Source: Clavibacter capsici
Lineage (GTDB): Bacteria > Actinomycetota > Actinomycetes > Actinomycetales > Microbacteriaceae
Length of the DNA stretch: 64,000 nucleotides
Assembly (NCBI RefSeq): GCF_001280205.1
Contig: NZ_CP012573.1
Coordinates: 1 to 64,000, forward strand
Direction of reading: 5' to 3'
Each line of letters starts with the position of its first letter. The stretch's first letter is position 1. The position numbers and the translations under genes are program-made. Below are positions 59,229-63,034 of the stretch, one piece after another. Below the pieces are notes generated by a model. It made no database searches. It saw only the letters and a list, made by a program, of their open reading frames with translations, and was not told where the DNA came from.

Positions 59229-59630
59229 TCACCCGCGCGGCAGCCGCCCCGCGACCTCCCGCAGCACGTCCGCGTCCTCGTACGCGAGCTCCATCGCGAC
59301 CGCCTCGGCCACCGGGAACCACGCGACGCGCTGCCCCTCGGTGAGCCGGATGTCCTCCGCCGCCACGTCGAGCCGCGCCGTGAAGGTGTGCTCGATCCCG
59401 TAGGAGCGCCTCCGCGTCAGGAGGTGCGTCACCTCCGCCGGCGGGATCCGCGCGCCCAGCTCCTCCTCGACCTCGCGCACGATGCACGCGAGGGGCGTCT
59501 CGCCCGGCTCGAGCATCCCGCCGGGGATCGCCCACATGCCGGGGAAGGGGATGGTGGGGATGTCGTCGCGCAGCTGCAGCAGGATCCGCCCGGCCGCGTC
59601 GACGAGCACGACCTGGCAGCCCTCGCTCAC
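59229..59630 (-). CDS. Nudix hydrolase
   Basis: 133 residues with a complete Nudix box GGMLEPGETPLACIVREVEEELG (about 37-59; G-x5-E-x7-REUxEExGU fits). Such enzymes hydrolyse nucleoside diphosphates linked to another moiety; the substrate is not predictable. The GTG start overlaps the stop of the MarR gene (GTGA), so the two form an operon. It converges on the APH-like gene with only 4 bases between stops. Confidence 0.92.
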   Translation of the reverse strand: MSEGCQVVLVDAAGRILLQLRDDIPTIPFPGMWAIPGGMLEPGETPLACIVREVEEELGARIPPAEVTHLLTRRRSYGIEHTFTARLDVAAEDIRLTEGQRVAWFPVAEAVAMELAYEDADVLREVAGRLPRG

Positions 59631-60112
59631 GCGGATGCCGCCGCGTCCGGCCCGTCGATGGTGTGCGCGGTCATCGCGACGGCGGCACGCGCGATGTCCT
59701 CGGCCGTCTCGTCGGTGCCCAGCGCGGGCGACGCGTGGAGCGCCACGGCGGCCGCCGCCCGGTAGTCGGCCTCCATCCGCGCGAGCGTCCTCCGCCCGGC
59801 GTCCGTGAGCTCGAGGAAGACGCTGCGGCGATCCCGCGGGTTGGGCACGCGGCCCAGGTGGCCCGCGCCGACGAGCCGGTCGATCACGGCGGTCACCGCG
59901 CCCGTGCCCATCGAGATCTCGGAGGCGAGCATCTTCGGGGTCATGCGGCCGAGGTCGCCGACGACGCTGATCACGGTCAGGTCGGTCACGTTGACGCCGA
60001 TGTCCTGCGCGATGCGGGTGCGCAGGTGCCGCTGGGCCGTCTCGACCATGTGCAGCGCGTTCGCGAGCGCGTCCACGGCCGCGTCGGCGTCGCGGCGGGC
60101 TGCTGGGGTCAT
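59627..60112 (-). CDS. MarR family transcriptional regulator
   Basis: The ATG at 60112 (frame continues upstream, but no conservation) gives 161 residues. A winged HTH is visible at about 35-115: VNVTDLTVISVVGDLGRMTPKMLASEISMGTGAVTAVIDRLVGAGHLGRVPNPRDRRSVFLELTDAGR, listed by parts, with the diagnostic DRRSVFLELT wing. It forms an operon with the Nudix hydrolase and is divergent from the SipW-type secretion locus across 227 bases. Whether it regulates either is unknown. Confidence 0.92.
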   Translation of the reverse strand: MTPAARRDADAAVDALANALHMVETAQRHLRTRIAQDIGVNVTDLTVISVVGDLGRMTPKMLASEISMGTGAVTAVIDRLVGAGHLGRVPNPRDRRSVFLELTDAGRRTLARMEADYRAAAAVALHASPALGTDETAEDIARAAVAMTAHTIDGPDAAASA

Positions 60113-60224: not shown

Positions 60225-60225
60225 A

Positions 60226-60253
60226 TTGCGCGGAATCCAAGTAGCTGTATATT
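60226..60253 (+). promoter_or_regulatory. Promoter of the SipW-type locus
   Basis: TTGCGC (60226-60231) and TATATT (60248-60253) with a 16-base spacer, the best sigma-A-like promoter in the window. The leader to the ATG at 60340 is about 80 bases, with GGAG at 60329-60332 as ribosome site. Confidence 0.65.
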
Positions 60254-60339
60254 CGAGTTACTCGCACAGCGAGACACCGAGCTTCTTCCTCAGGGGCTCA
60301 CCCAGCCCCTTCCTCCCCCTACGCACCCGGAGTCAGAAC

Positions 60340-61008
60340 ATGTCGAACCACATCGCCCCCGCCGCCAAGACCAAGCGCGTCCGCTTCGCCCCCCTCGCCA
60401 TCGCCGGCGGCGTCGCCGCCGCGGTCCTCCTCTCCGTCTCGATGTCCGGCACGCTGTCGGGCTTCGTGGCCTCCATCACCAACGACACCAACACGGCGGC
60501 CTCCGGCTCGCTCGTCATGCAGGAGTCGCAGGCCGGCGCCAACGGCGCGCCGACCGTCACCTGCCTCAGCACGAGCGCGGCGACCGGCGTCGACTCCAAC
60601 GCCGCCACCTGCTCCACCATCAACAAGTTCGGCGGCTCGACCACGATGATCCCCGGCCAGACGGTCACGAGCGTCGTCAACATCAAGAACGTCGGCACCT
60701 CGAAGGCCTCGACCTTCACGCTGACCCCGGGCGCCACCTGCACCCAGTTCAAGAACGGCACCGTCAACGGCTCGGCCACCGACTTCTGCTCCAAGCTCAA
60801 CGTCGTCATCACGGCGGCCGGCAGCACCACCCCCGTCTACTCGGGCACCGCCGCGGCCCTCGCCGGCTCCTCCGCCAAGACGCTGACGGCCCTCGCCGCC
60901 AACGCGAGCACCGACTTCACCTTCGCCGTCACGCTGGACTCCTCCGCCGGCAACACGTACCAGGGCCTCGGCGCCTCGCTGCCCCTCACCTGGACCTTCG
61001 CGGCGTAG
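60340..61008 (+). CDS. Secreted protein with SipW-type signal peptide
   Basis: 222 residues beginning with a basic segment (KTKRVRF) and a hydrophobic stretch (about 17-42), followed by ASITNDTNTAASG (44-56). This matches the SipW-dependent exported group (camelysin/TasA-like: short core, then a Thr/Asn/Ala-rich cleavage region). The mature part is Thr/Ser/Ala-rich and beta-prone, with several Cys (CLST, CSTIN, CTQF, CSKL), suggesting disulfides. It immediately precedes the SipW-type peptidase, its likely processing enzyme. It could be a fibre or matrix component (inference). Confidence 0.8.
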   Translation: MSNHIAPAAKTKRVRFAPLAIAGGVAAAVLLSVSMSGTLSGFVASITNDTNTAASGSLVMQESQAGANGAPTVTCLSTSAATGVDSNAATCSTINKFGGSTTMIPGQTVTSVVNIKNVGTSKASTFTLTPGATCTQFKNGTVNGSATDFCSKLNVVITAAGSTTPVYSGTAAALAGSSAKTLTALAANASTDFTFAVTLDSSAGNTYQGLGASLPLTWTFAA

Positions 61009-61088
61009 CGCCACCCAGACCAGCGGGGCCGCCTCCGGGCGGCCTCGCTATCCATCCCCCCTCGAACCCCTGACCCGGGAGGCGCACC

Positions 61089-62084
61089 ATGACCGACATC
61101 CAGGACCGCTCGACCGCCACCGCGCTCGAGCAGCTCGAGCAGGAGCTCGACGCCCTCGAGCTCGACCTGGATCTCGACCTCGTCTCCGAGGAGGCCGACC
61201 ACGACGCGGCCTCCCCGGCCCTCCCGGCGCGCGGCGCGGCTCGACGCGCCGCGCGCACCTCCCGCTCGTTCCGCCGCCGCACCATCGTGATGTGGTCGGC
61301 CACGATCCTCCTCACGCTCCTCGTCGCCGCGACGCTCCTCTTCCAGGCCTCCGGCGGCCGCTGGTTCGTCGTCCAGACCCCCTCGATGGGCACCACGGCC
61401 CCCGTCGGCGCGCTGCTGCTCACCACGCCCGTCCTCGTCGAGGACGTGCAGGTCGGCGACGTCGTCAGCTTCCACCCCTCCACCACCCCCGGCGAGACCT
61501 ACACGCACCGCGTGATCGCGGTCGACGCGGACGGCCTCACCACGCAGGGCGACATCAACGGCGCGGTCGATCCCTGGAAGACCGACCAGGAGCACCTCGT
61601 CGGCGAGGCCACCACGATCCTCCCGGGCTTCGGCTGGCTCGCGAAGGGCCTGCCGCTGATGCTCGCGGGCCTCGTGATCGTGACGGTCCTCACCCGCCTC
61701 ATCGCCTCGCCCACGCACCGCGCCTCGATGCGCATGGTCGGCGGATCCCTCGTCGCCGCGTTCACCGTCTTCCTGCTGAAGCCGTTCGTCGGCCTCGTCG
61801 TGCTCGACGCCGTGACGGCGGGCAGCGAGGTCCGCGCCAGCGTCGTCAACACCGGGCTCCTGCCCATCCGGGTCGCGGCCGAGGACGGCACCGCCACCTC
61901 CATCGTCTCCGGCGAGGTCGGCTCGATCACCGCCCCCGCCGGCGAGGCGGGCCGGTTCCACGACATCACCTCCACGCTCGACCTCCCGCTCTGGGGCTGG
62001 GTCGTCTTCTTCTCCCTCTGCGCCCTGCCCCTCCTCTACACGCTGGTCGTCGGCCTCCCGGCGGAGGAGGAGCGACGCGCATGA
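61089..62084 (+). CDS. sipW: Signal peptidase I, SipW/archaeal type
   Basis: A membrane signal peptidase with a Ser-His rather than Ser-Lys dyad: S99 in QTPSMGTT and H140 in TYTHRVIAV, the pattern of SipW and eukaryotic/archaeal SEC11. The 331 residues have an acidic cytoplasmic N-terminus with a repeated Leu-Asp run (about 20-32, ALELDLDLDLV), a first membrane helix (about 64-86), the catalytic domain (90-165) ending GDINGAVDPWK, and further membrane segments at about 175-230 and 310-325. It is flanked by two probable SipW-type substrates. The stop overlaps the next ATG. Confidence 0.88.
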   Translation: MTDIQDRSTATALEQLEQELDALELDLDLDLVSEEADHDAASPALPARGAARRAARTSRSFRRRTIVMWSATILLTLLVAATLLFQASGGRWFVVQTPSMGTTAPVGALLLTTPVLVEDVQVGDVVSFHPSTTPGETYTHRVIAVDADGLTTQGDINGAVDPWKTDQEHLVGEATTILPGFGWLAKGLPLMLAGLVIVTVLTRLIASPTHRASMRMVGGSLVAAFTVFLLKPFVGLVVLDAVTAGSEVRASVVNTGLLPIRVAAEDGTATSIVSGEVGSITAPAGEAGRFHDITSTLDLPLWGWVVFFSLCALPLLYTLVVGLPAEEERRA

Positions 62085-62980
62085 GCGTCGTCGCCCGCCT
62101 CCTCGGCCGCGCCGTCGCCCCCGCGGCGGATGCACGCCCCCGCCGCGCACCGCGCCTCGCCGCGATCGCCGCCTCCGTCTCCGCCGCCGCCCTCGGCGCG
62201 GTGCTGCTCCTCGCGCCGGGCACGAACGGCGCGTACACCGCCGCCATCACCAACACGAACAACAGCGCCGCCTCCTCGGCCGCCTTCTTCACCTGCTCCA
62301 GCGCCTTCGCGGCCGACAAGGCCAACGCGCTCTTCGCCTACCCGCTCAACGAGGCGACGGGATCCACGACCGCCGTCGACGCGGCCACCGGGTCCTACCC
62401 CGGCACGTACCGCGGCGGCATGACGAGCGACACGACCACGACGCGCGCCTGCCCCCGCGACACCGGCGGCGCCTACGTGCTCGACGGCAGCGACTTCGTC
62501 ACCAACACGCTGCAGGCGCAGGGCCCGGCGACCTTCAGCACCGAGGTCTGGTTCAAGACCACGGTGAAGGGCGGCAAGCTCATCGGCTTCGGCAACTCGC
62601 AGTCCGGATCCTCGTCGGCCTACGACCGCCACACGTACGTCTCGACGACCGGCCAGCTGGCCTTCGGCACCTACAACGGCGGCTACCAGACCATCACGAG
62701 CTCGGCCAACGTGGCCGACGGCGCCTGGCACCACGTGGTGGCCACCATGTCGCCCGGCACCGGCATGACCCTCTACCTCGACGGCGCCCGCGTCGCCGGC
62801 AACACGGGCTTCACGGCGCCGGAGAGCAACACGGGCTACTGGCGCATCGGCTACGACAACACGTCGGGCTGGCCGAACGCGGGAGCCAACTACTTCGTCG
62901 GCAGCATGCGCTTCGCCGCGGTCTACAAGACGGCGCTCACGGCCACGCAGGTCAAGGCCCACTACGACGCCGGCCGTTGA
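62081..62980 (+). CDS. Secreted LamG-like domain protein with SipW-type signal peptide
   Basis: The ATG overlaps the sipW stop (ATGA). Of 299 residues, the N-terminus is Arg-rich, then a hydrophobic stretch (27-46) and AAITNTNNSAAS (54-65), echoing the other secreted protein in this locus. The mature part is a concanavalin-like LamG_3 fold (about 85-299): FSTEVWFKT, KLIGFGNSQSG, ADGAWHHVVATMSPGTGMTLYLDGARVAG, and the ending FAAVYKTALTATQVKAHYDAG, all diagnostic. Such domains bind carbohydrates or proteins. Likely processed by the upstream SipW-type peptidase. Confidence 0.88.
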   Translation: MSVVARLLGRAVAPAADARPRRAPRLAAIAASVSAAALGAVLLLAPGTNGAYTAAITNTNNSAASSAAFFTCSSAFAADKANALFAYPLNEATGSTTAVDAATGSYPGTYRGGMTSDTTTTRACPRDTGGAYVLDGSDFVTNTLQAQGPATFSTEVWFKTTVKGGKLIGFGNSQSGSSSAYDRHTYVSTTGQLAFGTYNGGYQTITSSANVADGAWHHVVATMSPGTGMTLYLDGARVAGNTGFTAPESNTGYWRIGYDNTSGWPNAGANYFVGSMRFAAVYKTALTATQVKAHYDAGR

Positions 62981-62983
62981 CGC

Positions 62984-63017
62984 GACGACGGGACGGCCGT
63001 CCGGCCGTCCCGTCGTC
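62984..63017 (+). terminator. Terminator of the SipW-type locus
   Basis: GACGACGGGACGGCC (62984-62998) pairs perfectly with GGCCGTCCCGTCGTC (63003-63017) around a 4-base loop, immediately after the LamG-like stop. Confidence 0.85.
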
Positions 63018-63034
63018 GTGCGTCGTGCCGCGGA

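Follow-up and report, generated by a model that had tools for sequence, protein, structure and literature searches.

A three-gene operon of Clavibacter capsici combining a SipW-type signal peptidase with a TasA-fold protein and a LamG protein: a candidate donor-strand-assembled surface fibre

TasA-type donor-strand fibres, i.e. fibres in which the N-terminal strand of one subunit is inserted into the next, have been described structurally in Bacillus, with a relative in the archaea, and the TapA protein shares the strand of TasA and has been proposed as donor of the first strand (PMC9674648 and PMC10151520, in the parts available to us). Here we describe a locus in the first 64,000 nucleotides of the Clavibacter capsici contig NZ_CP012573.1 (the whole of this stretch is called the window; its first gene reads as dnaA and the host genome counts 3,241,713 bases), where the genes of the proteins P0001, P0003 and P0002, in that order and all on the forward strand, form a tight operon. 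An original prediction, made from the letters of the window, had placed a secreted protein, a SipW-like peptidase and a LamG-like secreted protein in one candidate surface-fibre locus. The three genes lie where that prediction had put them, the P0003 and P0002 genes overlapping by ATGA (Table 1), and the fibre idea finds computational support in the predicted fold of P0001, the kept gene order, a signal module common to both substrates and a Ser-His peptidase. We consider it probable, at roughly 0.6, that the operon builds a TasA-type, donor-strand-assembled surface fibre with a LamG protein as terminal subunit.

The predicted structure of P0001 has a TasA-type jelly-roll fold, with TasA as its best match, and four cysteines are conserved in the family. 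At the level of sequence profiles the protein is a distant homologue of other SipW substrates: the comparison with canonical actinobacterial substrates gave 92.7% (E 4.3e-7) for one set and 62.9% with a mature-only alignment, and only 1.4% was obtained against the substrates of a neighbouring SipW system (locus B, see below). Out of 24 substrate sequences extracted, 9 and 7 entered these comparisons, and the P0001 model was built from the 37 non-redundant members among 71 extracted relatives (the loci L064, L103 and L117 gave no regular-expression match and were not extracted). P0001 rises above the cut-off of no family model, PF12389, TIGR04088 and NF046066 included; matches among 38 family members are weak throughout (PF12389 in 12, best 0.0062; TIGR04090 in 9, best 0.033; NF046066 in one, 0.1), and the P0001 profile retrieves no TasA among the PDB sequences. 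This failure to qualify as TasA by sequence speaks for an arrangement without a polymer, in which two independent proteins share the peptidase: P0001, resembling camelysin, would be soluble or bound to the wall, and P0002 would be secreted as a lectin or glycan binder. For many SipW substrates no fibre is known. We nevertheless regard such independence as unlikely, given that the top fold matches of P0001 are filament subunits, and given three further observations on the shared module, the LamG genes and the intergenic hairpin that are presented where they arise.

The relatives of P0001 and P0002 can be aligned with each other along just 23 residues, which span the junction between signal and mature protein (94.9%, E 4.2e-8). 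Over the loci the majority pattern of this module is [FY]-x-A-x-[IV]-T-N-x-x-[ND]-[TS]-A-[AG]-[ST]; the aromatic place is taken by Phe in 72 of 73 P0001 relatives and by Leu in one, where it should be kept in mind that the scan for relatives used signal-region patterns and that the conservation of their signal is therefore partly by construction. Among the LamG relatives 60 of 62 fit a looser pattern, all 60 with Phe, Tyr or Trp at the aromatic place. A stricter pattern was found in 59 of 62 LamG N-termini, as compared with 3 of 6,200 shuffles, 0 of 127 segments elsewhere in the same proteins and 1 of 7,731 segments from other reading frames. The common post-signal motif of the original prediction is thus real and far above chance, albeit not in the form given: ITN-x-TN-x-AAS fits P0001 (ITNDTNTAAS) and not P0002 (ITNTNNSAAS). 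For TasA, the cleavage region TWA-AFND (P3-P4') has been named for its peptidase, and an aromatic residue at P2' is poorly cut by the standard enzyme LepB (PMC10269814, in the part available to us); with the cut placed as in TasA, the aromatic residue of the module would fall at P2' as well. The shared stretch continues for about 14 residues past the predicted cut, beyond the region so named, which argues against two independent proteins that merely have a peptidase in common.

When the whole genome was searched with a profile of the module, as had been suggested originally, P0001 (7e-20) and P0002 (1e-15) were recovered, by construction since the profile was built from both and their relatives, and no further good match appeared, the next one (0.008) covering the hydrophobic half only. 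The term dedicated substrates is therefore fair for both proteins. This bears on the notion that P0003 belongs to a general export module that processes many other substrates, its two neighbours being merely the nearest: three peptidases of the genome do exceed the TIGR02228 cut-off and further SipW-type substrates are present, but these adjoin the remaining two peptidases (65-68 kb; about 1.23 Mb) and the signal profile of the operon has no further good match in the genome, so that we consider this notion very improbable.

The gene order is kept far beyond the species. With the P0001 profile, 73 loci were obtained from named genomes; they belong to Clavibacter, Rathayibacter, Frondihabitans, Subtercola, Curtobacterium, Lacisediminihabitans, Leifsonia, Planctomonas, Amnibacterium, Arthrobacter, Pseudarthrobacter, Marmoricola and several metagenome-assembled genomes. 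The peptidase gene comes next in all 64 loci with at least 500 bases downstream, and the LamG gene follows the peptidase gene in all 61 with at least 1,400 bases. The closest named relatives of P0001 stem from Clavibacter (92-95% in the best matches, from which near-identical records may be omitted). Within a set of 60 genomes, our own included, the P0001 family was found in 21 (E <= 1e-4) and a P0002 match in 33, the latter partly via other LamG proteins. A survey of 398 Microbacteriaceae genomes found the P0001 family in 45 (three of them weakly, at about 2e-6), distributed over 12 of 85 genera, and the cassette is accordingly accessory. Some loci deviate in layout. The same-genus genome G013 matches all three genes at both C1:1585489-1588324 and 2162726-2165356, and seems to carry two operon copies; in the same-genus genome G016 a transposase, recognised by eye, takes the place of the shaft gene (L132:6153-7115) and the peptidase and LamG genes remain. 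A Microbacteriaceae metagenome-assembled genome has a tandem shaft-peptidase-shaft-peptidase arrangement (L102:532-3571), with no LamG match in the 3.6-kb contig, which ends within the second peptidase gene.

P0003 matches Pfam S26 (E 4.2e-7) and, at 52 bits, lies barely above the cut-off of TIGR02228 (51.85), as against 26.3 for the bacterial model TIGR02227 (cut-off 47). Its PDB sequence matches at E <= 1 consist of SEC11C/A alone, and the single sequence gave no useful match among PDB sequences. Structural re-alignment fails to separate the endoplasmic reticulum (ER)/archaeal from the bacterial types of signal peptidase. The originally predicted pair S99/H140 is, like D155 and D161, invariant, first in 12 aligned sequences and also in 34 (33 of 60 were used after removal of redundancy and of L054, whose frame runs on). 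Judged by its sequence, P0003 is best described as a SipW-type, i.e. ER/archaeal-type, signal peptidase with Ser-His instead of Ser-Lys, apparently nearer to the ER/archaeal enzymes than to bacterial signal peptidase I. The structure of its ectodomain was searched as part of the whole model. Residues 1-55 form a fast-changing acidic stretch of the ELDLELDL type, the length of which varies between genomes of the genus.

The third protein was correctly recognised as LamG-like: P0002 matches Pfam Laminin_G_3 with E 1.8e-22 and 80.5 bits, well above the cut-off of 27.6, and its sequence reads as the shared N-terminal strand followed by LamG. A match to the NCBIfam model TafC (confined to residues 206-297 and, at 24 bits, far below the cut-off of 410) was rejected as a LamG stretch in common, and a literature search for TafA/TafC returned nothing relevant. 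A P0002-like giant protein at 739-741 kb (a frame of 1966 amino acids, L121:4368-10268, about 738-744 kb in the genome) was likewise set aside, since by eye its signal looks ordinary and its LamG and PKD-like stretches or repeats are internal; LamG matches to such giant frames are present in all 18 same-genus genomes examined, our own among them.

The LamG domain varies more than its neighbours. For the same-genus comparison we used the 16 loci with all three genes out of 17 (L005-L021, including our own; L024 and the second G013 copy were not used). Among these, mature P0001 has a median identity of 92%, the peptidase core one of 86% and LamG one of 80%; in 48 of the 120 pairs LamG trails the peptidase core by more than 10 points. 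Loci L013 and L019, for instance, agree at 99% in P0001, 100% in the peptidase core and 65% in LamG. Their DNA, taken per 100 bases, is 91-100% identical in the P0001 gene; the peptidase gene begins at 76-82% and continues at 94-99%; in the LamG gene roughly the first 150 bases are 90-100% identical (per 20 bases), the domain falls to about 61-76% (per 100), and from the stop codon onwards identity is again 85-100% (per 20). The pairs L013/L010 and L016/L020 give a similar picture, and L017/L018 differ beyond the LamG gene too. The 55 usable named loci give 84 pairs in which the peptidases agree at 85% or more, and in 23 of these LamG is below 75%; for the two Subtercola loci L062 and L065 the three values are 92, 92 and 52%. 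An exchange of LamG domains by recombination is the simplest reading of these data, and its DNA break falls 3' of the shared stretch, a second point against two unrelated secreted proteins.

Changeable heads on a constant shaft suggest the binding of a variable glycan, either on a surface or host or on the cell's own wall. The latter option leads to a variant of the same fibre with P0002 at its base, where LamG would anchor the fibre by binding a polysaccharide of the producer's own wall, and its exchange would follow changes in that polysaccharide. Consistent with such an anchor are the varying LamG domains on a shaft that stays, and the lack of any visible sortase signal: by reading, no sorting signal ends P0001, P0002 or P0003 (LPLTWTFAA in P0001 has no hydrophobic tail), and none of the three gives a sortase family match, which sets the operon apart from sortase-assembled Gram-positive pili. 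On the other hand the same topology puts P0002 at the tip if subunits join at the membrane, and the sequences hold nothing to tell base from tip; the position depends on which end of the fibre grows. On balance we find the base position rather doubtful.

Between the P0001 and P0003 genes lies a 12-bp hairpin, of which the original prediction makes no mention. The 85 bases past the P0001 stop codon fold better than shuffles, with z < -2 in 48 of 62 loci (median -3.6). Segments of the peptidase gene reach this value in 5 of 62 cases, those of the P0001 gene in 2 of 62 and those following the LamG gene in 23 of 60. Examples of the hairpin differ in sequence between genera, and hence it is the position that is conserved and not the sequence. 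The hairpin suggests unequal dosage of the shaft and the downstream genes, which is a third point against independent proteins. The strong promoter and terminator that had been predicted did not survive a consensus scan, which returned 0 promoter-like and 0 terminator-like sites. Upstream of the operon a block is kept across 10 aligned Clavibacter-type upstream regions, within which the hexamer itself varies. A dyad-like AGTAnCT...AGnTACT, noted by eye, lies over the putative -10 region inside this block (60240-60275), and a MarR-type regulator gene (window 59630-60112, reverse strand) is divergent from the operon.

In the fibre that we favour, P0001 and P0002 would be exported and cut by P0003 just before [GA]-[FY], which would free a common N-terminal strand on both. 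P0001 would constitute the shaft, the strand of each subunit entering the groove of the next as its TasA-like fold implies. P0002, consisting of strand and LamG only, would be able to donate but not to accept a strand, and would hence be terminal, sitting at one end of the thread, a place proposed for TapA in TasA fibres, and supplying a binding head. The hairpin would be expected to let the shaft outnumber peptidase and head, and the head domain would be swappable by recombination behind the constant strand, as expected if the ligand differs between strains. A more specific version, which we offer tentatively and at less than even odds, is that of a sortase-independent actinobacterial fibre in which the TasA-like shaft and the donor strand of 15 residues stay constant and the LamG head that this strand joins to the shaft is exchangeable, being swapped between species by homologous recombination, and in which the peptidase might use its Ig-like ectodomain to retain the first subunit at the membrane, making cleavage and assembly one step.

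Table 1. Features of the operon and its flanks (positions in the window).
Feature	Position	Strand	Remarks
Conserved promoter-like block (TTGCGC, 16 bp, TATATT)	60225..60273	+	TATATT at 60248-60253, TTGCGC weak; no consensus sigma-70 site
P0001 gene	60340..61008	+	222 amino acids; TasA-fold secreted protein, putative major (shaft) subunit, 4 conserved Cys
P0001 SipW-type signal peptide	60340..60459	+	Predicted cut S40|G41, Phe at P2', by alignment with TasA TWA|AFND; region conserved
P0001 N-terminal strand GFVASITNDTNTAAS	60460..60504	+	Common to P0002; putative donor strand, after TasA
12-bp GC hairpin 3' of P0001 stop codon	61022..61049	+	Putative attenuator
P0003 gene	61089..62084	+	331 amino acids; signal peptidase of the SipW/ER type (Ser-His), extended at the C-terminus by membrane helices and an ectodomain
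Catalytic Ser99 codon	61383..61385	+	Invariant, 34/34 aligned
Catalytic His140 codon	61506..61508	+	Invariant, 34/34 aligned
P0003 small beta-sandwich ectodomain (residues 236-297)	61794..61979	+	Ig-like, low-scoring; flanked by two predicted helices
P0002 gene	62081..62980	+	299 amino acids; LamG-domain secreted protein, putative terminal (tip or anchor) subunit
P0002 N-terminal strand AYTAAITNTNNSAAS	62231..62275	+	Matches P0001 strand; putative cut G50|A51, Tyr at P2'
17-bp GC-rich hairpin after operon	62982..63019	+	z -4.4; without T-run; putative terminator between convergent genes

The genome holds two more SipW systems. Locus B (65-72 kb, opposite strand; L035:6159-12765, about 65.2-71.8 kb in the genome) lies just beyond the end of the window and encodes a peptidase, a TasA-like protein (PF12389, E 5e-9), a weakly camelysin-like protein, an LPXTG-type protein and a 1209-amino-acid DUF11/DUF7507 protein that matches L-type lectin below threshold; this DUF11-type giant was set aside, as it belongs to the neighbouring system. 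PF12389 matches also occur about 2.5-6 kb from the operon in several other genomes of the genus. Locus C (L036:9534-12781, about 1.229 Mb) has typical substrates, of the TIGR04089 and camelysin types, beside a 266-amino-acid peptidase. Locus C lies above and locus B below the cut-off of TIGR04088, both lie above that of PF12389, and neither model matches the present operon, which may be the reason why it has gone unnoticed so far.

In the literature searched (titles and abstract openings) we found no description of this gene arrangement: combinations of SipW or TasA with Clavibacter, Curtobacterium or Actinobacteria returned nothing on the locus, SipW/TasA with LamG only unrelated material, and Clavibacter attachment unspecific hits. 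The main text of a Clavibacter nebraskensis secretome paper contains none of six query terms, and a Clavibacter review mentions biofilm once and pili, fimbriae or adhesins not at all. The operon points to a further fibre branch in several actinobacterial genera including Clavibacter, none being described in that literature. It also offers a rule, namely that a shared N-terminal strand marks the partners of one fibre, and a natural experiment in the form of exchanged heads on an unchanged shaft.

Among the known systems, the canonical actinobacterial SipW substrates (TIGR04088/TIGR04089, PF12389; locus C) are alike in that distant P0001 homologues stand beside a TIGR02228 peptidase; unlike P0001 and P0002 they are recognised by existing family models, and locus C has, by eye, no LamG partner among its listed frames. 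The bundling pilus of Pyrobaculum calidifontis (7ueg) is archaeal. The sipW-calY-tasA system of Bacillus cereus combines SipW with co-assembling camelysin-type subunits and a third protein, CapP, that controls assembly (PMC13082335; order after PMC10151520); CapP is chaperone-like, and the parts of these papers available to us do not mention a LamG head. As far as the accessible parts of the sources go, the tapA-sipW-tasA operon of Bacillus subtilis likewise consists of three genes, one for a dedicated Ser-His SipW-type peptidase, one for a subunit with the TasA fold and one for another substrate that bears the same N-terminal strand, and it shares both the start-stop overlap of the peptidase and second-substrate genes and the aromatic residue at P2'. 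The Clavibacter operon differs from it in that P0001 has no sequence match to TasA, its genes run shaft-peptidase-head, a LamG protein takes the place of TapA with its Ig fold as second substrate, four cysteines are conserved in the shaft and the peptidase carries an extra beta-sandwich ectodomain.
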